DNA of 64,000 bases from Thiosocius teredinicola (GTDB taxonomy: Bacteria; Pseudomonadota; Gammaproteobacteria; Chromatiales; Chromatiaceae), in contig NZ_CP019936.1 in assembly GCF_002009425.1 (NCBI RefSeq), positions 1,411,001 through 1,475,000 on the forward strand. The letters run 5' to 3'. The translations under genes were made by a program, and so were the position numbers. Shown in pieces: positions 39,498-50,892 of the stretch. Each line of letters starts with the position of its first letter. Within the stretch, counting starts at the first letter, position 1. Under the pieces are notes generated by a model that had not been told where the DNA came from, made no database searches, and saw only the letters and a list, made by a program, of their open reading frames with translations.

Positions 39498-40376
39498 ATG
39501 GCCTTGTTTCCCGATCTGCTGACCGCCGTCGGCTTTATGGCCGTGCTCGGTCTGCTGTTGGCCGGCATTCTTGCCGTCGCCAACCGCCGTCTCTATGTCT
39601 ACGAAGATCCGCGCATCGATCAGGTCGAGGCGCTGCTGCCAAGCGCCAACTGCGGCTCCTGCGGCACAGCCGGATGCCGCGCGTTCGCCGAGAAGCTGGT
39701 CAGCGGCGAATTGCAGCCGGCGCTGTGCACCGTCAATTCGAAAGAGGGCAACCAGGTGATTGCCAATTTTCTGGGTGTCGAACTCGGCAGCCAGGAGCGG
39801 CGCGTTGCCCGGCTGGCGTGTGCCGGCGGCAGCAACGTTGCACAACGTCACGCGAGCTATGTCGGACTGGACAGCTGTCGCGCCGCGGTGATGGTCGCCG
39901 GCGGCGGTAAGGGTTGTGCCTGGGGGTGTCTCGGCCTGGGCGATTGCGCCAAGGTATGCGAGTTCAATGCACTGGCGATGAATCAAAACGATCTGCCGGT
40001 GGTGGATGTCGAGCGTTGCACGGCCTGCGGCGATTGTGTCGAGATCTGTCCTCGCGATCTGTTTTCGCTGCATGCGATCAGTCACCAGCTCTGGGTGGCC
40101 TGCAAGAACCTTGAGAAAGATGAGCAGGCCGAGGCCGAGTGCGCCGTGTTGTGCACCGCCTGTGGCCGTTGTGCCGCCGATGCGCCCGAAGGGTTGATCA
40201 CGATCGACAACAACCTTGCGGTCATCGACTACGCCAAGAACGGCTTGGCCAGCAGGTTGGCGGTGGAACGTTGTCCGACCGGCGCGATTGTCTGGTTGGA
40301 CGATGTCAGTGGCGCGGCGCACAAAGGCAGAGACGCCAAACGGATCGTACGCAAGGGGGCATTGCCGGTCGGCTGA
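39498..40376 (+). CDS. rnfB: Rnf electron transport complex subunit B
   Basis: A 292-residue iron-sulfur protein with an N-terminal membrane helix (8-28). Cluster ligands: C52, C55, C60 and C77 (NCGSCGTAGC...LC) for the Fe-S domain; C140, C144, C150, C154 and C174, C177, C180, C184 for a 2[4Fe-4S] ferredoxin domain; and C219, C222, C225 with C259 for an additional C-terminal cluster. RnfB accepts electrons from ferredoxin. It is about 100 residues longer than enteric RsxB and resembles the multi-cluster forms of anaerobes. ATG 39498 is chosen for the helix that follows; the ribosome site is weak. The pyruvate oxidoreductase gene follows after about 110 bases. Confidence 0.92.
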   Translation: MALFPDLLTAVGFMAVLGLLLAGILAVANRRLYVYEDPRIDQVEALLPSANCGSCGTAGCRAFAEKLVSGELQPALCTVNSKEGNQVIANFLGVELGSQERRVARLACAGGSNVAQRHASYVGLDSCRAAVMVAGGGKGCAWGCLGLGDCAKVCEFNALAMNQNDLPVVDVERCTACGDCVEICPRDLFSLHAISHQLWVACKNLEKDEQAEAECAVLCTACGRCAADAPEGLITIDNNLAVIDYAKNGLASRLAVERCPTGAIVWLDDVSGAAHKGRDAKRIVRKGALPVG

Positions 40377-40484
40377 AGGCCGTCTGCGGCAATCCCAGGG
40401 TTTAAGAACAGCGGCCGGCGTAGCAATGCGCTTGTCCGCACAGGCCACACGCGCTGTGTGGCGAACGCAAGGGTAGGGCGAGTC

Positions 40485-43400
40485 ATGTTCGGAAAGAAGG
40501 AACCGCAGCAGTTCAAGTATCCAGGCAAGCGCATGGCGATGGACGGCAACACCGCCGTCATCATGTGCGAGCGTGAGTCATCCGACGCCGCCGGCGCGTA
40601 TCCGATCACACCGTCGACGCAGATGGGTGAGTACTGGGCCGAGGAGACGGCCAAGGGCCACATCAACGTATCCGGCCGGGCGCTGATCTTCGTCGAGCCG
40701 GAAGGTGAGCATGCGGCAGCGGGGGTGACCGCGGGTATGTCGATGTCGGGCCTGCGTGCCAGCAACTTCTCCTCGGCGCAGGGCATCGCCTATATGCACG
40801 AGTCGCTGTACGCTGCGGTCGGCAAGCGTCTGCCCTATGTGCTCAACATGGGCTGCCGGGCGATCACCAAGTCGAGCCTGAACGTACATGCCGGACATGA
40901 CGATTATCACTGTGTCGACGACACCGGCTTCGTGCAGTTGATGGCCAAGGATGCGCAGGGCGCCGCCGACCTGAACCTGATCGGCCGCAAGATCGCCGAG
41001 TTGTCGCTGACCCCGGCGATCGTCGCGCAGGACGGTTTTCTGACCACCCACCTGATCGAACCGTTGCAGGTGCCCGAGCGCGAACTGGTCGCCGAGTATC
41101 TGGGCCGCCCGGACGACATCATCGATTCACCGACGCCGGCGCAACGTATGCTGTACGGCGACAAGCGTCGCCGCATCCCGGTGCTGTGGGATGTCGATAA
41201 CCCGGTGTTGGCCGGGCCGGTCGAGAACCAGGACTCGTACATGCAGTCGGTGGTCGCGCAGCGGCCGTATTTCTTCGACCACATCGAGGAGATCACCGAC
41301 CAGGCGATGCAGGAGTTCTATGCGCTGACCGGTCGACGCTACCAGCGCGTCAGCGGCTACCGCATGGATGATGCCGACTACGTGATACTCGGCCAGGGCA
41401 GCATGATCGTGCAGGCGCAAGCGGTGGCGGATTACCTGCGCAAGACGCGCAACCTCAAGGTGGGTGTCGTCGACCTGACGTTGTTCCGCCCGTTCCCGGG
41501 TGATCTGCTCGGCGAGCTGTTGCACGGCCGCAAAGCGGTCGCCGTGCTGGAGCGCACCGACCAGCCATTGGCCGAAGACCTGCCGCTGATGCGCGAGGTG
41601 CGTGCGGCGCTGTTCAAGTGCGTCGAAAACCAATTGGCCGGCGACCGCAGACCGTACCCGGAGTATCCGAGCTTGGCCGCCAAGGAGATACCGCGACTGT
41701 ACTCCGGCTGTTATGGCCTGGGCAGCCGCGACCTGCAGCCCGAGGCGTTGGTCGGCGCCGTCGAGAACATGTTGCCCGACGGTGCGCAGCGGCCGTTCTA
41801 TTACCTGTCTGTCGATTTCGTGCATGCCGAGGCCGCCAGCCCGAAGCAGGAGATCCATCAACAGCGCCTGCTCGACGACTACCCGCACATCAAGGACCTC
41901 GCGATACGCGGCAGCGAAAACCCCGACCTGACACCGGACGGTTCGATCACGGTACGCATGCACTCGGTCGGTGGCTGGGGTGCGATCACCACCGGCAAGA
42001 ACCTGGCGATGACGCTGTTCGACCTGCTCGGCTATGACATCAAGGCCAACCCCAAGTACGGTTCGGAAAAGAAAGGTCAGCCGACCACCTACTACCTGTC
42101 GGCGGCGCCCGAACCGATTCGCCTGAACTGCGAATATCACTTCGTCGATGTCGTGATGTCGCCCGATCCGAACGTGTTCAGCCATTCAAATCCACTGTAC
42201 GGTCTGAACAAGGGCGGGGTGTTCATCATCCAGAGCAGTCTTGCCGGTCTTGAAGACGTGTGGGCCGGTTTTCCGCGTCAGGCGCGTCAGTTCATCATCG
42301 ACAACGACATCCGCGTGTTCTGCCTCGACGGCTTCAAGATAGCGCGTGAAGAGGCAACCAATCCCGATCTGCAGTACCGCATGCAGGGCAACGCCTTTCA
42401 GGGTGCGTTCTTCGCGACATCGCCGGTCATGGCGCAGAACAATCTCGATGAGCAGGGGTTGTTCGACGCGATCGATCGCCAGTTGCGCCACAAGTTCGGC
42501 GGCAAGGGCGAACGCATCGTGCAGGACAACCTGCGCGTCGTTCAACGTGGCTTCGACGAGGTGCGCGAGATCGTCGACAAGCCGATCGATGCGGTCTCCG
42601 TCGAGCCGCATCGCAAGTCGGCCGGCATGCCGGTTATGCTCAAGCAGATGCCGGAGGCCGACGGTGGCATCACCGATGTGCATCGCTTCTGGGAGCAGAC
42701 CGGCAGCTTCTACGCGGTCGGCAAGGGCGAAGAGAACCTGGCCGATCCGTACATCGGTTTGAGTCTGATCCCGGCGTCGTCGAGCGTGTTCCGCGACATG
42801 ACGCAGATCCGTTTCGAGTATCCGAAATACATCGCCGAGAACTGTACCGGCTGCGGCAACTGTTTCAGCGTGTGCCCCGACAGCGCGATACCCGGGCTGG
42901 TCAACAGCGTCGCCGACGTGTTCGAGACGGCGATCCGTCGCATCGAACGCGAACAGCAGCCGACGATCTGGCTGCGTCGTGCGGTGCGCGATATCGAAAA
43001 GCGCCTGCGTGCCTTGATCGAACCGCTCGGTGATCATGCCAACGTCAACGCCTGTCTCGACCAGGCGGTGCTCGAGTCGGTGGCCGCGTCCGAACTGCAC
43101 GGCGATGACAAGGCGCGTCTCGAAGAAGAGTTCGGCTGGTTCATGGCGACGATCGGCGATTTCCGTTTCGCCGTGACCAAGCCGTACTACAACAACCGCG
43201 AAAAGAAAGAGAAGAACAGCGGCGGGCTGTTCTCGGTCACGATCAATCCCTATACCTGCAAGGGCTGCATGGAGTGTGTCGATGTCTGCGGCGACGAGGC
43301 GCTGGTGCCGACACCGCAGACGGCCAAGGAGGTCGAGCGGCTGCGCAGTGAGTGGGACTTCTGGCTCGACCTGCCGACCACGCGTCCGGAATACATCCGT

Positions 43401-45437
43401 ATCGACGACCTCGACGAACGTATCGGCGCACTCGAAACCCTGTTGCTCGACAAGCACAACTATGGCTCGCTGACCTGCGGCGACGGTTCCTGTGTCGGCT
43501 GTGGCGAGAAGTCGTCGATTCATCTGTTCACATCGGTCGTCACCGCGCTGATGCAGCCGCGCGTGAAGCGTTTCGTCGAACACGTCGACGACCTGATCAA
43601 GCGTCTCGATCAGCATGTGCGCCTGCGCCTGGCTGAGGGCATCGACCTTTCGAACGATACCGCGATCGATGAGATCGTGTCGCAGCATCACAGTAGCGAC
43701 CTGAGCCTGGCGGAACTGTCGGGCGGACTGGATCGGGCGGGCGCCGGTGAACCTGTCGATGCCGAATGGCTGCAGCGCACCACACACCTGCTCAAGGACC
43801 TGCGTCAGCTCAAGTGGCTGTACACCCAGGGTCGCTTAAACCGCGGGCGCGCTGAGATGGGCATCATCAATGCGACCGGTTGTACTTCGGTGTGGGGCTC
43901 GACCTATCCCTACAACCCGTACCCGTTCCCGTGGGCCAATCATCTGTTCCAGGATTCACCGTCGGTTGCGATGGGCGTATTCCAGGGTCATATGGCCAAG
44001 ATGGCCGACGGCTTCAAGACCGTGCGCCGCGCCGAGATCGAACTCGACGGCGGTTACAAGGCCGATGAGCACGACGAGCTGTTTGCGTACTTCGACTGGC
44101 GCAAGTTCAGCGATGAAGAATGGCTGCTGTGTCCGCCGGTGGTCTCCGTTGGCGGCGACGGTGCGATGTACGACATCGGATTCCAGAACCTGTCGCGCAT
44201 GCTGATGTCGGGCTTTCCGATCAAGGCGCTGGTGCTCGATACCCAGGTGTACTCGAACACCGGCGGCCAGGCCTGCACTTCGGGCTTCACCGGCCAGGTG
44301 TCGGACATGGCGCAATACGGCAAGGCGCACAAGGGCAAGGAAGAGATCCGCAAGGAGATGGCCCTGATCGGTGCGGCGCACCGTACCGCTTACGTGATGC
44401 AGGGTTCGATCGCCAACATCACGCACCTGCTCGAAGGTTTTATTGCCGGACTGAACAGCCGCCGCCCGGCGCTGTTCAACATCTACGCGGCCTGTCAGCC
44501 CGAGCATGGTATCGGCGACGATGCCTCGGCGGCACAGAACAAGTTGGCCGTCGAATCGCGTGCCTACCCGCTGTTTCGTTACGACCCGGATGCCGGCACC
44601 ACGTTTGAAGAGTGCGCCGACCTCGAGGGCAACCCGGCGATCGATGACGACTGGCCGACCTACACGCTGAGCTATACCGACGACTTCGGCAACCCGGCGA
44701 AGGTCGAGGTGCCGATGACGTTTGCCGACTTCGCTGTGACCGAAGGTCGCTTCCGCAAGCACTTCCGCAAGGCGCCGCCGGATTCGTGGAACGAGAACAT
44801 GACACCGCTGCACGAACTGCTCGACATGGCGGCCGAGGATCGCGAAGACCTCGTGCCCTATATCCTCGGCGTCGACAGCAAGAACCGCTTGATGCGCGTG
44901 TTGGTGTCGGAAGAGATCGTGGCCTCGTGTGAAGACCGGCTGCGCTATTGGCACCAGTTGAAATCTCTGGTCGGCATGCAGCGCAGCAGCGCCGGTGTCG
45001 ATGTCGACCAACTGGTGAACCAGGCGCGCGCAGACATGGCGCAAAAGCTGTCGGCGAGCCTGCTCGGGTTGGTCGGGTCGGGCGACGCAGCGGCATTGCT
45101 GGCTGAAGCGCCAGTCGCGCCGAGCAACGGCGGAGGCAACGGCAGTGCAGCACCTGCACCGGCCGGTGCTGATGCGGGCAGCGGTGGCTACGAGCCGGTA
45201 TGGATAGAGACGCCCGAGTGCACCGCCTGCGATGAATGCACCAAGATCAATCCGAAGATCTTCGCCTACAACGATGACAAGAAGGCGATCGTGATCAACC
45301 CGAAAGGCGGTCCGTTCCGCGACATCGTCAAGGCAGCGGAGAAGTGCACCGCGGGTGTGATCCATCCGGGGACGCCGTTCGATCCGAAAGAGAAGGATCT
45401 GGATCGGCTGATCAAGCGCGCAGAGAAATACCAGTAG
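40485..45437 (+). CDS. pyruvate:ferredoxin (flavodoxin) oxidoreductase with C-terminal ferredoxin domain
   Basis: A 1650-residue fused 2-oxoacid oxidoreductase, much longer than usual NifJ/Por proteins (about 1200). In order: the pyrimidine/substrate domain (ERESSDAAGAYPITPS, near 40); the gamma domain (GGWGAITTGKNLA, near 496); two [4Fe-4S] motifs (CTGCGNCFSVCP near 786, CKGCMECVDVC near 925); the TPP domain (GDGSCVGCGEKSS near 998, GDGAMYDIG near 1224, then YSNTGGQAC). A Gly/Ala/Pro linker leads to a further ferredoxin-like module near 1575-1650 with CTACDEC and a distant cysteine in AEKCTAGVIHPG. It converts pyruvate and CoA to acetyl-CoA, CO2 and reduced ferredoxin, or the reverse. It lies inside the rnf operon. 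Confidence 0.93.
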   Translation: MFGKKEPQQFKYPGKRMAMDGNTAVIMCERESSDAAGAYPITPSTQMGEYWAEETAKGHINVSGRALIFVEPEGEHAAAGVTAGMSMSGLRASNFSSAQGIAYMHESLYAAVGKRLPYVLNMGCRAITKSSLNVHAGHDDYHCVDDTGFVQLMAKDAQGAADLNLIGRKIAELSLTPAIVAQDGFLTTHLIEPLQVPERELVAEYLGRPDDIIDSPTPAQRMLYGDKRRRIPVLWDVDNPVLAGPVENQDSYMQSVVAQRPYFFDHIEEITDQAMQEFYALTGRRYQRVSGYRMDDADYVILGQGSMIVQAQAVADYLRKTRNLKVGVVDLTLFRPFPGDLLGELLHGRKAVAVLERTDQPLAEDLPLMREVRAALFKCVENQLAGDRRPYPEYPSLAAKEIPRLYSGCYGLGSRDLQPEALVGAVENMLPDGAQRPFYYLSVDFVHAEAASPKQEIHQQRLLDDYPHIKDLAIRGSENPDLTPDGSITVRMHSVGGWGAITTGKNLAMTLFDLLGYDIKANPKYGSEKKGQPTTYYLSAAPEPIRLNCEYHFVDVVMSPDPNVFSHSNPLYGLNKGGVFIIQSSLAGLEDVWAGFPRQARQFIIDNDIRVFCLDGFKIAREEATNPDLQYRMQGNAFQGAFFATSPVMAQNNLDEQGLFDAIDRQLRHKFGGKGERIVQDNLRVVQRGFDEVREIVDKPIDAVSVEPHRKSAGMPVMLKQMPEADGGITDVHRFWEQTGSFYAVGKGEENLADPYIGLSLIPASSSVFRDMTQIRFEYPKYIAENCTGCGNCFSVCPDSAIPGLVNSVADVFETAIRRIEREQQPTIWLRRAVRDIEKRLRALIEPLGDHANVNACLDQAVLESVAASELHGDDKARLEEEFGWFMATIGDFRFAVTKPYYNNREKKEKNSGGLFSVTINPYTCKGCMECVDVCGDEALVPTPQTAKEVERLRSEWDFWLDLPTTRPEYIRIDDLDERIGALETLLLDKHNYGSLTCGDGSCVGCGEKSSIHLFTSVVTALMQPRVKRFVEHVDDLIKRLDQHVRLRLAEGIDLSNDTAIDEIVSQHHSSDLSLAELSGGLDRAGAGEPVDAEWLQRTTHLLKDLRQLKWLYTQGRLNRGRAEMGIINATGCTSVWGSTYPYNPYPFPWANHLFQDSPSVAMGVFQGHMAKMADGFKTVRRAEIELDGGYKADEHDELFAYFDWRKFSDEEWLLCPPVVSVGGDGAMYDIGFQNLSRMLMSGFPIKALVLDTQVYSNTGGQACTSGFTGQVSDMAQYGKAHKGKEEIRKEMALIGAAHRTAYVMQGSIANITHLLEGFIAGLNSRRPALFNIYAACQPEHGIGDDASAAQNKLAVESRAYPLFRYDPDAGTTFEECADLEGNPAIDDDWPTYTLSYTDDFGNPAKVEVPMTFADFAVTEGRFRKHFRKAPPDSWNENMTPLHELLDMAAEDREDLVPYILGVDSKNRLMRVLVSEEIVASCEDRLRYWHQLKSLVGMQRSSAGVDVDQLVNQARADMAQKLSASLLGLVGSGDAAALLAEAPVAPSNGGGNGSAAPAPAGADAGSGGYEPVWIETPECTACDECTKINPKIFAYNDDKKAIVINPKGGPFRDIVKAAEKCTAGVIHPGTPFDPKEKDLDRLIKRAEKYQ

Positions 45438-45447
45438 GTCATCCGAC

Positions 45448-46785
45448 ATGGGATTGCGCGATCTGTTCAGACGTCACACGTTCGAACACGGTATACATCC
45501 GCCGGACCACAAGGCGTTGACCGCGGGGCTGTCGATCCGACGCCTGCCGTTTGCGCCTTACCTGGTCATACCGCTTTCCCAGCATGCCGGTGCGCCGGCA
45601 ACACCGCTGGTCAAGAAAGGGCAGGATGTCGCGCGTGGCGAACCGATTGCCGAGGCGAACGGTTTCGTTTCGGTGCCGATGCATGCACCGGCCAGCGGGG
45701 TCGTCGACGACATCAGGCTGATGCCGAGTGCGCGTGGCCCGAAGAGCCTGTCGATCGTCATTCGGGTTTACGAAGGTTCGCCGCAGCGCGTCGAGTATGA
45801 ATCGCCGCGCAACGTCGACGACATGACGCCCGAGCAGATCGTCGAGGCGGTGCAGGCGACCGGCATGGTCGGGCTCGGTGGCGCGGCGTTTCCGACACAC
45901 GTCAAGATGCGCCCGCCCAAAGAGCACACGGTGGATACCGTGGTCGTCAACGGTTGCGAGTGCGAACCCTACCTGACATGCGACCACCGCCTGATGCTCG
46001 AGAAACCGGACGAGCTGATCGCCGGCATCAAGATCGCGTTGCGCGCTACCGGCGCCAAGCGGGCGGTCATCGGGATCGAAGATAACAAGATGGATGCGGT
46101 CGAGGTACTCAGCGCACGTGTACGCAGCGAAGCGCTCATCGATGTACAGGCGGTGCCGACCAAGTATCCGCAGGGCGCCGAGAAAATGCTGATCGAAAGC
46201 CTGCTGCACCGTCGCATCCCACCGGGTTCGCTGCCATCGTCGGTCGGCGTCAGCGTGTTCAACGTGGGCACGCTGGTGCAGATCGGCGAGTTGTTGCCCA
46301 CCGGGCGTGGCCTGATCGAACGCGTCGTGACGGTGACCGGTGCCGGTATCCGCCAGCCCGGCAACTACCTGGTGCCCGTCGGCACGCCGATCCGCTATCT
46401 GCTCGAGCACGTAGGGGCGAACGAGCCGGTGCATGAATTGATTCTCGGCGGGCCGATGATGGGGATGTCGGTCGCGGCGCTCGACGTGCCGGTGACCAAG
46501 GCGATGTCCGGCATGGTGGTGTTGCCGCCGCCGAAGCAAAGCAAACAACTGCCGGTCATGGCCTGTATCCGCTGCGCCTACTGCGTCGAGGCCTGTCCGA
46601 TGCATCTCAATCCGTCGACACTCGGCCTGCTCGCGACCAAGCGCGAGTACCAGAAGATGGCGGCCGATTTTCATCTCAACGATTGTTTCGAATGCGGCTG
46701 CTGTACCTACGTCTGCCCGTCGAACATCCCGCTGGTGCAGTACTTCCGCATCGCCAAGGCGATCAATCGCGAGAGGGCGGCGTGA
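45448..46785 (+). CDS. rnfC: Rnf electron transport complex subunit C
   Basis: A 445-residue peripheral subunit. The N-terminal glycine-rich NADH/FMN-binding region includes GMVGLGGAAFPTHVKM and VVNGCECEPYLTCD. Two [4Fe-4S] motifs lie near the C-terminus: CIRCAYCVEACP and CFECGCCTYVCP. RnfC is the NAD(H) site of the complex. It ends soon after the clusters and lacks the long Ala/Lys-rich tail of enteric RsxC, so it resembles the short forms of anaerobes. It begins ten bases after the pyruvate oxidoreductase stop, which argues for one transcript. Confidence 0.95.
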   Translation: MGLRDLFRRHTFEHGIHPPDHKALTAGLSIRRLPFAPYLVIPLSQHAGAPATPLVKKGQDVARGEPIAEANGFVSVPMHAPASGVVDDIRLMPSARGPKSLSIVIRVYEGSPQRVEYESPRNVDDMTPEQIVEAVQATGMVGLGGAAFPTHVKMRPPKEHTVDTVVVNGCECEPYLTCDHRLMLEKPDELIAGIKIALRATGAKRAVIGIEDNKMDAVEVLSARVRSEALIDVQAVPTKYPQGAEKMLIESLLHRRIPPGSLPSSVGVSVFNVGTLVQIGELLPTGRGLIERVVTVTGAGIRQPGNYLVPVGTPIRYLLEHVGANEPVHELILGGPMMGMSVAALDVPVTKAMSGMVVLPPPKQSKQLPVMACIRCAYCVEACPMHLNPSTLGLLATKREYQKMAADFHLNDCFECGCCTYVCPSNIPLVQYFRIAKAINRERAA

Positions 46786-46786
46786 G

Positions 46787-47842
46787 ATGAGCGATCAACA
46801 CATCCAGGTTGAGCTGCGCAGCTCGCCGCACCTTAAGCAGACGATCAGCACCGCACAGATCATGCGCAATGTGGTCTATGCGCTGCTGCCGGTGTGTGCC
46901 TTTGCCGTGTACAACTTCGGCCTGAGCGCCTTGTTGCTGCTCGCCGTGACCACGGCCGGTTGTATGGCGACCGAGCGGCTGTTTTGTCGGCTGTCCAACA
47001 GACCATCGAGTTTGAACGACTGGAGCGTGGTGATTACCGGCCTGCTGCTCGGCCTGACGCTGCCGCCCGGTTTCCCGCTGTGGATGGCGCTGGTCGCCAG
47101 CGTGGTTGCGGTCGGCCTGGGCAAGGCGTTGTTCGGCGGTCTCGGTCACAACGTGATGAACCCGGCGTTGGTCGGACGCGCCTTCGTGCAGGCGGCATTT
47201 CCTGTCGCGATCACCACCTGGACCCCGTCACTGTTGCCGGCACGCTTCAGCGAGCTGATCCCGACGACGCTGACGGCGCCTTTCATGCAGCCGCCGGATG
47301 TCACGCAATGGATCGCCACGCGCACGGCCGATGCCTTCACCGGCGCGACGCCGCTGGCACTGCAGAAGTTCGAGCACGTCAGCACCGACAGCATGGAGCT
47401 GTTGATGGGCATGACGGCCGGTTCGGCCGGCGAGACCTCGGCGATCATCATCCTGCTTGGCGGCCTGTATCTCGCGGCGCGGCGCATGCTCGATTGGCGC
47501 ATACCGATCGGCGTACTGCTCGGGGCGGCACTGACCGCGTTGCCGTTCTGGTTGATGGACTCGGCGCGCTATCCCGACCCCTTGTTCGTGGTGGCGTCGG
47601 GTGGATTGATGCTCGGTGCCTGGTTCATGGCGAGCGACATGGTCGCCTCGCCGGTCACGCCGATGGGCGTGTGGATCTATGCGCTGTTCATCGGTGCGTT
47701 GACGGTCGTGATCCGTCTGTTCGGAGGTCTGTCCGAAGGTGTGATGTACGCCATTCTGCTCGGCAATGCCATCTCGCCATTGATCGCGACCATCTCGCAG
47801 CCGCGGGTATTCGGCAGTCGACGGCGTGGGGCGCGGCCATGA
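46787..47842 (+). CDS. rnfD: Rnf electron transport complex subunit D
   Basis: A 351-residue membrane subunit with about nine or ten helices. The flavinylation motif is FTGATPLA, whose threonine near residue 188 carries covalent FMN in the family. Other hallmarks are GLLLGLTLPPGFPLWMALVA, GLGHNVMNPALVGRAF and ASDMVASPVTPMG. It is part of the ion-translocating core. It starts just after rnfC, and its stop overlaps the rnfG start. Confidence 0.95.
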   Translation: MSDQHIQVELRSSPHLKQTISTAQIMRNVVYALLPVCAFAVYNFGLSALLLLAVTTAGCMATERLFCRLSNRPSSLNDWSVVITGLLLGLTLPPGFPLWMALVASVVAVGLGKALFGGLGHNVMNPALVGRAFVQAAFPVAITTWTPSLLPARFSELIPTTLTAPFMQPPDVTQWIATRTADAFTGATPLALQKFEHVSTDSMELLMGMTAGSAGETSAIIILLGGLYLAARRMLDWRIPIGVLLGAALTALPFWLMDSARYPDPLFVVASGGLMLGAWFMASDMVASPVTPMGVWIYALFIGALTVVIRLFGGLSEGVMYAILLGNAISPLIATISQPRVFGSRRRGARP

Positions 47843-48546
47843 GCGAAGCGACGTCTCACGCCCAACAGCCGCTGCCGACGACGCCGAGCATGGCGATGCT
47901 ACGCACGCTCGGGCTGGTGGCGGCAATCTCCGGTTTCCTGGTCGTGCTGGCCTACCAGATCACGCAACCGATGATCGAAGAGAACAAGCGTCTGGCGATC
48001 GAGCGCGCCCTGTACCAGGTGGTGCCGGGAGCGGTAGCGCGCCGCGACTTCGTCCTCACGGCCGACGGCATTGCGCCACGTGACCCATCGGCAGAGCTCA
48101 ACGGCGTCCTGCTGTATGCCGGTTACGATGCAGACGGCAAACTGCAAGGCATCGCGCTCGAAGCGGCTGCGCAGGGCTACCAGGACGTTATCCGGTTGCT
48201 GTATGGCTACGATCCGAAGTGCCGTTGCATTCGCGGCATCCAGGTGTTGAAGATGGCCGAGACTCCGGGCATCGGTGACCAGATCGCCAAGGATCCCGCA
48301 TTCATCGAAAACTTTCGTGCGCTCGACGTGAGTCTGAACGATGCAGGCGATGCGCTGCGCAATCCGGTTGTAGCCGTCAAGCACGGCAAGAAGACCGATC
48401 CGTGGCAGATTGATGCGATCTCGGGCGCGACCATTTCATCCAACGCGGTGGCGCGTATGTTGAACGACAGTGCGCAATCGGTGCTGCCGCGCGTCCATGC
48501 CGATCTGGAGCAACTGACGAATCCGCAGAACGGAGGTGCGCCATGA
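47839..48546 (+). CDS. rnfG: Rnf electron transport complex subunit G
   Basis: A 235-residue protein with an N-terminal membrane helix (23-42) and a periplasmic FMN-binding domain. SGATIS at 195-200 is the covalent FMN attachment motif, with T198 as the likely site. ATG 47839 overlaps the rnfD stop. It contains an unusual KCRC pair (C128, C130). It passes electrons on the periplasmic side of the complex. Confidence 0.94.
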   Translation: MSEATSHAQQPLPTTPSMAMLRTLGLVAAISGFLVVLAYQITQPMIEENKRLAIERALYQVVPGAVARRDFVLTADGIAPRDPSAELNGVLLYAGYDADGKLQGIALEAAAQGYQDVIRLLYGYDPKCRCIRGIQVLKMAETPGIGDQIAKDPAFIENFRALDVSLNDAGDALRNPVVAVKHGKKTDPWQIDAISGATISSNAVARMLNDSAQSVLPRVHADLEQLTNPQNGGAP

Positions 48547-49235
48547 GCGCAGACAGCGGTGACAAGTCGGCCGTACCGGGCCTGCTCAATCGCGAAGAAG
48601 ACGTGACGCTCGATACCTTTCTGCGCGGTCTGTGGCAGGAGAACCCGGTATTCGTCATGTTGCTGGGCATGTGTCCGGTGCTGGCGGTGACGAACTCCGC
48701 GATCAATGCGTTGGCGATGGGGCTGGCCACGACCTTCGTGCTGGTGAGTTCGAACATCCTGGTTTCGTTGTTCCGCCACGCGATACCCAAGCAGGTGCGC
48801 ATCGCGACCTACATCGTCATCATCGCCACCTTCGTGACGATGGTCGATTATGCGATCCAGGCGATCAGCCTCGATCTCTACAATGCGCTCGGTGCTTTCA
48901 TCCAGCTGATCGTTGTGAACTGCGTGATCCTCGGCCGTGCCGAGGCCTATGCGTCCAAACAGCGCCTGTTGCCGACCGTGGTCAATGGCCTGGGGATGGG
49001 CGCCGGCTTCACCTTTGCCTTGCTGTGCCTGGGCAGCGTGCGCGAAATACTCGGTGCCGGCAGTCTGTTCGGTGTCGCACTGTTCTCCGAAGGCTTTCAG
49101 CCGTGGGTCGTGATGATTCTGCCGCCCGGCGGTTTCTTTGTGTTGGGTGGTTGGTTGCTGTTGTTCAACTGGCTCAAGCGGGTACGTGAGCGGCGTGCCG
49201 TCGAACAAACGGGGGTGACTGTCCATGGAAGCTGA
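48543..49235 (+). CDS. rnfE: Rnf electron transport complex subunit E
   Basis: A 230-residue six-helix membrane subunit paralogous to RnfA. C44 in LLGMCPVLAVT and a cysteine near 127 in VVNCVILGRAEA are the half-site residues that, with RnfA, hold the intramembrane iron-sulfur centre in the Rnf/Nqr family. GGAGG lies five bases before ATG 48543, which overlaps the rnfG stop. It overlaps rnfA by 11 bases. Confidence 0.95.
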   Translation: MSADSGDKSAVPGLLNREEDVTLDTFLRGLWQENPVFVMLLGMCPVLAVTNSAINALAMGLATTFVLVSSNILVSLFRHAIPKQVRIATYIVIIATFVTMVDYAIQAISLDLYNALGAFIQLIVVNCVILGRAEAYASKQRLLPTVVNGLGMGAGFTFALLCLGSVREILGAGSLFGVALFSEGFQPWVVMILPPGGFFVLGGWLLLFNWLKRVRERRAVEQTGVTVHGS

Positions 49236-49815
49236 TTCGCTCACGTTCATCTTCTTGAACGCCGCGGTCATCAACAATTTCGTGCTGGCGATGTTCCTTG
49301 GCATCTGTCCATTTCTCGGCGTGTCGGCCAAGCGCGACACCGCGTGGAGCATGGGGCTGGCCGTGGTGTTCGTCATGCTGGTCAGCTCGGTATGCGCGTT
49401 CGGCATCAACTGGCTGCTGGTCAGGCTCGAGATCGAGTTCCTGCGTCTGATCTGCTATATCGCCGTGATCGCATCGGCGGTGCAACTGGTCGAGATGGCG
49501 ATGAAGAAGCTGAGTCCGGCGCTGTTCCGCGCGCTTGGTATCTTCCTGCCGTTGATCACGACCAACTGCGCCATCCTCGGCGTCGCGTTGTTTCAGACGT
49601 TCCGTGAGTACAGCTTTCTGCAGAGCCTGGCATTCAGCCTGGGCGCCGGTTTCGGCTTCACCCTGGCGTTGATGCTGATGGCCGGATTGCGCGAACGCCT
49701 TGAGCTGTCGGCCGTGCCGGACGTGAGCAAAGGGGCTGCATTGACTCTGATGCTCGCCGGCATGCTGTCGCTGGCGTTCATGGGGTTCGCCGGGCTCGGA
49801 GGTCAGCATGCTTGA
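49225..49815 (+). CDS. rnfA: Rnf electron transport complex subunit A
   Basis: A 196-residue six-helix membrane subunit. VINNFVLAMFLGICPFLGVS with C28 and ITTNCAILGVAL with a cysteine near 115 match the RnfA/NqrE iron-sulfur half-site. GGGGGTGA precedes ATG 49225. The rnf gene order here is B, then C-D-G-E-A, unlike the A-B-C-D-G-E order of enteric and Vibrio systems. The stop overlaps the next small gene. Confidence 0.95.
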   Translation: MEADSLTFIFLNAAVINNFVLAMFLGICPFLGVSAKRDTAWSMGLAVVFVMLVSSVCAFGINWLLVRLEIEFLRLICYIAVIASAVQLVEMAMKKLSPALFRALGIFLPLITTNCAILGVALFQTFREYSFLQSLAFSLGAGFGFTLALMLMAGLRERLELSAVPDVSKGAALTLMLAGMLSLAFMGFAGLGGQHA

Positions 49816-50029
49816 TTATGTCGTCGCGGTGGTTCTGATTTTTGCCGCCTTGATCGGCTGGCTTAAGGTACAGGAGACGGCCCGCCGGTTCGCTGCGCGG
49901 CATCCGCAGTTCGGGCCGGCGCGGGAAGAAGGGGGAGGTTGTGGCAGTAGTTGCAGTTGCAGCCAGGGACAATGTTCGTCGAAACACGAGGTGGTGTTGC
50001 AGCCGCAACACCGGGAGCATGCATCATGA
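49808..50029 (+). CDS. small membrane-anchored Cys-rich protein, NqrM-like by architecture
   Basis: A 73-residue protein with one N-terminal helix (residues 4-19), a basic stretch, and four clustered cysteines: C45, C49, C51 and C56 in GGGCGSSCSCSQGQCSS. It overlaps rnfA at its start and the flavoprotein gene at its end (ATGA), so it is firmly inside the operon. NqrM, which is needed to mature the iron centre between NqrD and NqrE, has the same plan: one helix and four cysteines. Sequence identity to NqrM is not obvious, so a maturation role for the RnfA/RnfE centre is an inference. A FeoB-associated-type Cys-rich protein is an alternative. Confidence 0.75.
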   Translation: MLDYVVAVVLIFAALIGWLKVQETARRFAARHPQFGPAREEGGGCGSSCSCSQGQCSSKHEVVLQPQHREHAS

Positions 50030-50892
50030 CCAGTCTCAGTGAATACGATACCAGTGACCGCTACATGGCCAAGGTTTTGGAAACCCACCGGATAACCCCG
50101 GAGAATGCGCCGGAGGTGCGCAGCATCCTGCTCAATGTGTCGCGACCGGGATTCCATTTCGACGAGGGACAGAGCGTCGGTGTGCTGTTGCCCGGGCCGC
50201 ACGAGCATGGCGAGTTGCAGCACTTTCGTCTGTACACCATCGCCAGCGCACAGGAAACGGCCAAGGTCGGCGAGGCCGATATCGAACTGTGCGTGCGGCG
50301 TTGCTTCTATATCGACGAGGTCAACGGCGAAGAGTATCCGGGGCGTTCTTCCAACTTTCTGTGCGATGCGCGACCAGGCGACACGGTGATCCTGACCGGG
50401 CCCTACGGTGATGCGTTTCGCTTACCGAACGACAACGAGGCAAACTTGTTGTTGATCGGCACCGGCACTGGCATTGCGCCGTTCCGCGCCTTCGTCCGTC
50501 ACATCTACGAGAACCGCGCGGACTGGAAGGGCGATGTGCGCCTGTACTATGGCGCGCGCACCGGCATGGAAAAGCTCTATCAGAATGTCGAGCGCAACGA
50601 CTTTGCCAACTATTACGATCATGCGACGTTCGAGGCGTTCGAGGGCTTGAGCAAACGCCCGTGGATGCACGGCGACGATCAGGGACTGAGCGCGTTGCTC
50701 GAACAGAATGCGCAGGATATTTGGGAGCGCATGCAGAAACCCAAGACCTACGTCTACATCGCCGGCCTGGAAAACACCCGCGAGGCCTTCAACAAGGCCA
50801 TGGTGCAAGCGGCCGGTTCAGAGGCGCGCCTGCGTCTGCAGCGCGAAGAGATGATGGAGCAGGGGCGTTGGTCTGAGTTGATCTACGGCTGA
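50026..50892 (+). CDS. ferredoxin-NADP+ reductase-like flavoprotein
   Basis: A 288-residue FAD/NAD(P) oxidoreductase of the plant-type FNR fold. The FAD site is FRLYTIAS (RxYS/T type), FVPGD-like RPGDTVILTGPYG follows, the nucleotide-binding GTGTGIAPFRAFVRH is intact, and LYYGARTGMEKLY and YVYIAGLENTREAF match the C-terminal half. No fused ferredoxin domain is present. The closest functional types are FNR and the reductase part of BoxA. As last gene of the rnf/pyruvate oxidoreductase operon, it probably exchanges electrons between ferredoxin and NADP(H). ATG 50026 overlaps the previous stop. Confidence 0.88.
   Translation: MTSLSEYDTSDRYMAKVLETHRITPENAPEVRSILLNVSRPGFHFDEGQSVGVLLPGPHEHGELQHFRLYTIASAQETAKVGEADIELCVRRCFYIDEVNGEEYPGRSSNFLCDARPGDTVILTGPYGDAFRLPNDNEANLLLIGTGTGIAPFRAFVRHIYENRADWKGDVRLYYGARTGMEKLYQNVERNDFANYYDHATFEAFEGLSKRPWMHGDDQGLSALLEQNAQDIWERMQKPKTYVYIAGLENTREAFNKAMVQAAGSEARLRLQREEMMEQGRWSELIYG

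Follow-up and report, generated by a model that had tools for sequence, protein, structure and literature searches.

A pyruvate:ferredoxin oxidoreductase with a tethered ferredoxin encoded inside a conserved rnf operon of Thiosocius teredinicola

The closest described counterpart of the system studied here is an operon of the S. velum gill symbiont, in which the gene for a pyruvate:ferredoxin oxidoreductase (PFOR) lies between rnfB2 and rnfC2 and pyruvate has been proposed as an electron donor (PMC4287430). In Caldithrix abyssi, gene tags run consecutively through the six rnf genes (Cabys_3129–3134) and the PFOR named there lies elsewhere (Cabys_0262; PMC5317091), so an order with rnfB first also occurs without PFOR inside. 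This order, rnfBCDGEA, is that of Bacteroidetes/Chlorobi, whereas Firmicutes have rnfB last (PMC4014512, PMC3534657). Here we describe a nine-gene operon at positions 39498–50892 of a 64,000-nucleotide window of Thiosocius teredinicola DNA (bases 1411001–1475000 of a single-contig 4.79-Mb genome). It runs entirely on the plus strand in the order rnfB, PFOR, rnfC-D-G-E-A, a gene for a Cys-rich peptide and a gene for a ferredoxin–NADP reductase (FNR)-type flavoprotein. With the Bacteroidetes/Chlorobi and C. abyssi operons it shares rnfB first, followed by CDGEA (PMC4014512, PMC3534657, PMC5317091), and it is the same operon as that of the S. velum symbiont, whose locus (L127) falls in the same RnfC clade. 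The available portion of the S. velum account gives the position of PFOR only, with no fused ferredoxin, wider family or relic (PMC4287430). Within the searchable text of the open-licence PMC literature, we found neither a ferredoxin-fused PFOR encoded among rnf genes nor dead PFOR relics described, which is no proof of novelty. The PFOR-in-rnf arrangement is already known; what is new, as far as literature searches reach, is the ferredoxin fusion, the breadth of the family, the operon with relics and the putative case of arm sharing. The reading that we prefer, held with slightly more conviction than doubt, is that the operon encodes a membrane-bound pyruvate:NAD(H) oxidoreductase: the ferredoxin-carrying PFOR would dock on a dedicated Rnf pump, and the complex would most likely make pyruvate.

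A giant PFOR in a conserved rnf gene unit

Pfam matches and alignment to solved PFORs (6cin, 1b0p and 7plm, which we take to come from D. africanus and M. thermoacetica) place in the window PFOR domains I, II and III, two ferredoxin-type [4Fe-4S] clusters, a proximal cluster, the thiamine diphosphate (ThDP) domain with the catalytic residues, and a C-terminal ferredoxin domain. Retained are YPITPS, GDG and YSNTGGQ, the Glu-rich contact to ThDP, an Arg at the position of residue 114 in 7plm, the Cys of the proximal cluster and the motifs of both ferredoxin-type clusters; for these motifs and for that Arg we presume the roles usually assigned to them. Domains, cluster Cys and catalytic motifs are common to this protein and the NifJ-type enzymes, but the latter are 1171–1232 aa long, whereas the window PFOR has 1650 aa, with insertions and the fused ferredoxin. 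A ~100-residue insertion separates the two cluster motifs, and the classical NifJ equivalog TIGR02176 scores only 388 bits against a cut-off of 911.35. The last 70–80 residues form a one-cluster ferredoxin, for which a profile search matches PDB 1dax, Ferredoxin I, presumably the D. africanus ferredoxin that partners D. africanus PFOR. Across 79 aligned rows, the ferredoxin-domain Cys 1579, 1582, 1585 and 1621 are kept in 78–79, the catalytic motifs and internal cluster Cys in all 79 at nearly every position, and the Arg at the 7plm residue-114 position in all 79. The kept motifs point to pyruvate as the substrate. As a side observation, the PFOR frame of the S. velum symbiont locus (L127, 10001–14912) is broken in the linker ahead of the ferredoxin domain, which is either a true change or an assembly error.

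Conservation was followed in 58 members of the organism's own family (50 genera, own genome included) and in 35 other genomes. A window-type PFOR is present in 29 of the former and one of the latter, and at least one rnf gene stands beside PFOR at all 27 window-type loci fetched with wider flanks. A scan of named genomes confirmed at least 572 relatives in the wide sense, the best 80 of which give the counts that follow. In these, PFOR identity across the best segment is 62–72%; rnfB immediately precedes PFOR in 69 of the 70 loci with at least 1.1 kb on that side (the exception being L140), and rnfC lies downstream in all 66 loci with at least 2 kb there. Among the 53 loci with full flanks, 51 hold all six rnf genes, 47 the Cys-rich peptide and 25 the FNR; in the incomplete operons, rnfG, rnfE and rnfA were not found (L117), or rnfG was not found (L135). 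By these counts the rnfB–PFOR–rnfC grouping is beyond chance, and there is good support for a conserved genetic unit of Rnf and a PFOR that carries its own ferredoxin. An earlier note, made from the sequence alone, had taken the operon as a single set that connects pyruvate with ferredoxin, with NAD(H) and ion pumping, and with NADP(H); the conserved gene unit supports this, with NADP(H) as a probable member. At L088 (Ca. Sedimenticola endophacoides), the rnfB match is split in two pieces ~290 bp apart, as if interrupted.

The carriers among the best 80 bear the titles Chromatiaceae, Sedimenticola, Thiodiazotropha, Ectothiorhodospira, Shewanella atlantica, Rhodocyclales, Thiobacillus and Gallionellaceae, and, for metagenome-assembled genomes (MAGs), whose titles are possibly wrong, Alphaproteobacteria, Verrucomicrobia, Kiritimatiellae, Acidobacteria, Hydrogenedentota, Calditrichales, Spirochaetaceae and Bacteroidetes. 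By both PFOR and RnfC, the closest named kin are uncultured Gammaproteobacteria and Sedimenticola. In seven of 20 genomes (G094, G096–G100 and G104), several of them MAGs with possible gaps, the PFOR-linked RnfC is the only RnfC match at E 1e-40. In 17 other Rnf regions from the phylum of genome G093, some of them cut by contig ends, no PFOR lies inside the operon; their sole PFOR-type match is a 56-residue match to the ferredoxin domain (L272).

The Rnf set itself has all six subunits: A, B, C, D and E score above their NCBIfam cut-offs, and RnfG, at 98.6 bits against 102, carries FMN_bind above the Pfam cut-off. The TGAT motif of RnfD and the SGAT motif of RnfG, which we take to be flavin attachment sites, are in place, as are Cys 28 and 115 of RnfA and Cys 44 and 127 of RnfE, pairs to which we likewise attach their presumed meaning. 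The predicted activity is ion-coupled ferredoxin:NAD+ oxidoreduction. RnfB is of the long type, with an N-terminal FeS domain, a central 2x[4Fe-4S] and one more Cys set at the C-terminus, and its best PDB matches are 9eri_B and 7zc6_B, presumably from the Rnf complexes of A. woodii and C. tetanomorphum. RnfC, the NADH/FMN subunit, has 445 aa and no long tail. The earlier note had read both proteins in this way, as an RnfB with extra clusters and an RnfC without the enteric tail. Longer RnfC frames occur elsewhere in the genome, in two further Rnf sets that are both ordered A-B-C-D-G-E: one (RnfC at C1:1491032–1492315, 542-aa frame) lies ~15 kb from nifH (C1:1506927), and the other (RnfC at C1:3610505–3611806, 553-aa frame) is Rsx-type. 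The window set is therefore a third, different one. It departs from enteric and gammaproteobacterial Rsx in gene order (ABCDGE in Rsx), in its long rather than short RnfB, in its short RnfC frame and in clade placement. The acetogen-type label that the earlier note gave to the gene order did not hold either. Although A. woodii (9eri) and C. tetanomorphum (7zc6) Rnf resemble the window set in six subunits, long RnfB and short RnfC, the window has rnfB first rather than last, PFOR inserted, and an RnfC whose clade stands apart from those two rows, the two Firmicutes rows in the trees. Relative to the two clostridial structures, one four-Cys set is gone from RnfB in 72 of 72 PFOR-operon rows and in 6 of 6 rows from the KorAB operons described below. 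We rejected this loss as a signature of PFOR docking, because 8 of 11 other long RnfB proteins of the G093 phylum are likewise without the set.

The presence of nifH in the genome, and the naming of Rnf after nitrogen fixation, would fit an operon that supplies low-potential ferredoxin to nitrogenase. We consider this highly improbable: the RnfC at C1:1491032, close to nifH, groups with the 8ahx row, which we take to be A. vinelandii Rnf1, and among the family members nifH is about as frequent with the operon (12 of 29) as without it (10 of 29), the search for nif having covered the 93 relatives. The genome also encodes another PFOR, whose 1204-aa frame (C1:80865) has the length of NifJ, so that, with the Rnf near nifH and the Rsx-type Rnf, those roles have other candidates.

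A tethered ferredoxin does not require Rnf. A third giant PFOR type of 1685–1710 aa, in G003, G004, G019 and G053 (L066–L069), has all scored motifs intact and no rnf match within the stretches fetched, although it carries a ferredoxin-like tail. At L066 (6054–14076, G003), the only locus whose neighbour was scanned, the following gene encodes a 981-aa NfnAB-like fusion above the NF009415 cut-off. PFORs with such a tail may pair with different ferredoxin partners. These proteins favour an explanation by co-regulation only, under which PFOR and Rnf would both draw on one pool of free ferredoxin, with the fused domain as a local relay that does not dock. The explanation is unlikely, however, given that PFOR sits between rnfB and rnfC nearly without exception, and that dead PFOR relics, which a free pool does not explain, persist in KorAB–Rnf operons. 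We infer, on good grounds, that PFOR docks on Rnf.

Descent of the unit and its sister KorAB–Rnf operon

In an RnfC tree of 128 rows (a quick method with SH-aLRT as the one support measure, a midpoint root and some rows of odd composition), all 70 PFOR-operon rows stand on one side of a branch (SH-aLRT 99). Their neighbours are KorAB-operon rows and a second Calditrichales RnfC, with which they join at SH-aLRT 100. Lying apart from these are 23 of 24 gammaproteobacterial Rsx/Nif rows (99), the 24th (L200) being a long branch elsewhere, and the two Firmicutes rows. In line with the earlier note, which had looked to trees to set the subunits apart from ordinary gammaproteobacterial Rsx, the window type falls outside that group; RnfC and PFOR are the proteins treed here. 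The same picture came from a second RnfC tree (PFOR type 99, KorAB type 92, both joined 100), which drew on 24 of the 70 PFOR-operon rows, 30 rows from the G094 phylum and four further RnfC from KorAB-type loci of that phylum. Within the PFOR-type clade, under midpoint rooting, Pseudomonadota are nested among rows from other phyla, so the operon likely entered Pseudomonadota from outside. The placement of Shewanella atlantica suggests that the unit was transferred as a whole: its RnfC falls with that of Sedimenticola, and its PFOR with those of Sedimenticola and Chromatiaceae. Mirror-tree comparison of PFOR and rnf distances gave moderate Spearman correlations of 0.57–0.63 (0.38 for FNR), which back shared descent weakly, being confounded by shared taxonomy.

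The sister operon runs korA, korB, a gene for an 820–840-aa protein, rnfB, a gene for a 1420–1560-aa protein and rnfCDGEA. Such operons or clusters were found at L070–L075, L260, L317 and L318, those of L074 and L075 being cut by contig ends. KorA exceeds the cut-off for the alpha subunit of 2-oxoacid oxidoreductases in the two operons tested, and the one KorB tested is below its own (229.6 of 261.9). Judged by their sequences, both extra proteins are diverged copies of the giant PFOR. The large relics have lost YPITPS, GDG, YSNTGGQ and the proximal Cys in 7 of 7 cases, yet keep the eight Cys of both ferredoxin-type motifs in 7 of 7; the small relics have lost the ThDP motif in 5 of 5 and keep the four ferredoxin Cys in 4 of 5, the frame of L071 ending before them. 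The large relics and the window type come together in the PFOR tree with a support of 97, against 88 for the window type by itself; the long branches of the relics leave their exact position unsure. That dead relics have been kept in the sister operon suggests that enzyme and pump are physically joined.

In G260 and G261, the KorAB cluster has rnfB and rnfC, with no rnfD, rnfG, rnfE or rnfA found beyond rnfC. Each of these genomes has one full RnfD-type gene, which lies within the PFOR operon; other partial matches fall in 405–406-aa frames that we take for NqrB. The simplest reading is that this KorAB cluster would be a peripheral arm borrowing the membrane core of the PFOR operon. It is also possible that it borrows an Nqr core, or that its RnfB and RnfC act as soluble proteins. 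The large relic of these two genomes is without CxxCxxC and only 21% identical to the L070 relic, and the small relic keeps its ferredoxin; an electron relay through the large relic is therefore not general.

We tentatively propose, at somewhat less than even confidence, that this Rnf pump family has 2-oxoacid oxidoreductases as built-in arms. One branch would carry an active giant PFOR, and the other KorAB with two dead PFORs serving as scaffold and as ferredoxin carrier between KorAB and RnfB/RnfC; in G260 and G261, two arms would share one core. Of the 29 family members with the operon, 9 have a KorAB-type RnfC, as do 2 of the 29 without it (Fisher test, p 0.04, from a set of three such tests and with kinship not removed). 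In Endoriftia, a dimeric 2-oxoglutarate oxidoreductase and a 'PFOR-like' gene change together, as expected of a KorAB–relic–Rnf operon, which occurs in relatives; the available part of that account gives the direction of korAB and the 'PFOR-like' gene as unknown (PMC11636981). If this 'possible PFOR' corresponds to the relic, then the motif losses seen in the relics would leave it without catalytic activity. The earlier note overlooked that a ferredoxin domain is fused to PFOR, that the unit occurs in several phyla, and that sister operons hold dead relics of PFOR.

Direction of the reaction

Gene content, conservation, domains, kept catalytic residues and the RnfC and PFOR trees are observations; docking, the electron path, the direction, the NADP preference and the ion are what we infer from them. 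With the ferredoxin-tethered PFOR docked on its dedicated Rnf, electrons would pass between NADH at RnfC, the flavin and Fe-S chain of RnfG, D, E and A, RnfB, the PFOR ferredoxin domain and the ThDP site, in either sense, and their flow would be coupled to ion movement. Most likely, the ion gradient would raise NADH electrons to ferredoxin potential, and PFOR would then fix CO2 onto acetyl-CoA, giving pyruvate for gluconeogenesis or for assimilation of acetate or polyhydroxyalkanoate (PHA); the FNR would be a second port, for NADP(H). Since the reaction can run either way, pyruvate oxidation coupled to export of ions could occur too.

Gene neighbours in relatives bear on this direction. Phosphoenolpyruvate (PEP) synthase directly follows the operon in 7 of the 48 loci with room (L089, L093, L121, L123, L124, L147 and L150), with near copies among them (L121 and L124; L147 and L150). 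The three of the seven that were tested all exceed the equivalog cut-off. The PEP-synthase regulatory protein comes next in five of the seven (PF03618 in the one tested), and such a gene is also near L079 and L082. On a Calditrichales contig, a KorAB–Rnf operon (L260:4687–19700), a monomeric NADP isocitrate dehydrogenase on the opposite strand (1212 bits against a cut-off of 950) and a PFOR–Rnf–FNR operon (L261:1464–15213) stand in a row, the three CO2-fixing steps of the reductive tricarboxylic acid (TCA) cycle. In G187, KorA and KorB lie past the PFOR operon on the same strand, with one gene between. From the PEP synthase neighbours, the Calditrichales row and the KorAB of G187, pyruvate synthesis is moderately favoured over oxidation. 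We also observed, after the PFOR–Rnf operon of an alphaproteobacterial MAG (L115:10044–14504), an apparent second 2-oxoacid oxidoreductase (gamma, alpha and beta, alpha alone being scanned) together with an NAD(P)H/Fe-S protein. A divergent CysB-like LysR regulator lies within 600 bp upstream of rnfB in 20 of 61 relatives and does not adjoin the window operon; of three examples tested, none passes an NCBIfam cut-off, and the regulator is thus silent on direction.

The same complex might instead run forward under anoxia, PFOR turning pyruvate into acetyl-CoA and CO2 and Rnf making NADH and an ion gradient from the ferredoxin electrons. This direction is the one given for the S. velum symbiont, with pyruvate as electron donor (PMC4287430), and Rnf of fermenting clostridia runs forward (PMC12174285). 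The adjoining PEP synthases and the reductive-TCA-type enzymes on one contig speak against it, and although the reversible steps of the latter keep them from being decisive, we find the forward direction rather doubtful. For the PFOR of Kentron symbionts, which may be of another type, carboxylation of acetyl-CoA during PHA use has been argued (PMC6593406).

Several observations, besides the S. velum account, weigh against a docked, pyruvate-making complex. PEP synthase is absent after the operon in 41 of the 48 loci and beside the window operon, and the reversibility of the oxidoreductase and dehydrogenase steps leaves the neighbour evidence short of decisive. The genome keeps isocitrate lyase, and in the family the operon is associated neither with isocitrate lyase (15 of 29 with the operon, 10 of 29 without) nor, by the counts above, with nifH. 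The rnf-free giant PFORs and the G260/G261 large relic without CxxCxxC also count on this side. A role of the operon in replacing a missing glyoxylate shunt was rejected, given the isocitrate lyase of the own genome and the absence of association within the family. RuBisCO does not discriminate, being found in 48 of 58 family members (26 of 29 with the operon, 22 of 29 without); the own genome has two genes for its large subunit (C1:3880682 and C1:4224029). Of the earlier suggestion that a reverse run could make pyruvate from acetyl-CoA, what stands is that the neighbour genes in relatives favour it, and they fall short of proof.

Accessory proteins, locus layout and implications

The Cys-rich peptide matches no Pfam family above cut-off. 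A relation to NqrM found no support, with no PF04400 match and an hhalign Prob of 2.4 against up to 13 in 20 column shuffles; homology to NqrM would be a guess from position and layout. The FNR scores below the cut-offs of both nearest models (PetH, 158.7 of 600; BoxA, 121.6 of 459.2). In plant-type FNR, the Arg, Lys and Tyr of a motif such as GARTGMEKLY bind the NADP phosphate. The window protein has this motif with all three residues, so an NADP(H) port is likely. Its presence in only 25 of 53 loci means that FNR is not essential to the operon core.

The features of the operon are collected in Table 1; set and order of the genes, their common direction and the ends of the operon are as the earlier note had them.

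Table 1. Coordinates of the operon in the window and the evidence for each product
Feature	Position	Strand	Product and evidence
rnfB	39498..40376	+	292 aa, long type; PF04060 + Fer4 matches; TIGR01944 77.1 bits (cut-off 68.7)
PFOR	40485..45437	+	1650 aa; POR_N, PFOR_II, POR, TPP_enzyme_C, Fer4_13; PDB 6cin, 1b0p, 7plm
PFOR ferredoxin domain	45219..45434	+	residues ~1579–1650; Fer4_13; 1dax in profile search
rnfC	45448..46785	+	445 aa; TIGR01945 512.8 bits (cut-off 245.95); Complex1_51K, RnfC_N, SLBB
rnfD	46787..47842	+	351 aa; TIGR01946 293.4 bits (cut-off 207.05); TGAT at residue 185
rnfG	47839..48546	+	235 aa; FMN_bind PF04205 above cut-off; TIGR01947 98.6 bits (cut-off 102); SGAT at 195
rnfE	48543..49235	+	230 aa; TIGR01948 243.6 bits (cut-off 213.4)
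rnfA	49225..49815	+	196 aa; TIGR01943 236.2 bits (cut-off 229.3)
Cys-rich peptide	49808..50029	+	73 aa; hydrophobic N-terminal stretch; kept beside rnfA in relatives
FNR-type flavoprotein	50026..50892	+	288 aa; NAD_binding_1 above cut-off; nearest PetH/BoxA ferredoxin-NADP reductases

From PFOR onward, the genes are spaced by 10 bp and 1 bp and then overlap, bearing out the short gaps and overlaps reported before. The gap between rnfB and PFOR is 108 bp, with no terminator-like site found within it. A simple promoter scan gave 0 hits in the region against a mean of 2.9 in shuffles and is accordingly uninformative on the transcript. Two ABC-2 membrane proteins are encoded upstream of the operon, and a di-haem cytochrome c peroxidase, a phosphoesterase, a SoxA-like cytochrome and a chemoreceptor downstream; these flanking genes look unrelated to it.

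The dead PFOR relics offer a testable case of an enzyme that has become a wiring part, and they call for caution in annotation, as some 'PFOR-like' genes may be non-catalytic. How microaerobic and aerobic bacteria obtain low-potential electrons for pyruvate synthase is an open question. NADH lies at about -320 mV, and pyruvate synthase needs electrons in the range of about -500 mV. At two ions per NADH, a gradient of ~180 mV would take NADH electrons from the one potential to the other, and this stoichiometry has been given for Rnf (12 Na+ for 6 NAD+; PMC12174285). If the preferred reading is true, a PFOR seated on an ion-driven pump would supply such electrons without light-driven ferredoxin reduction or electron bifurcation.

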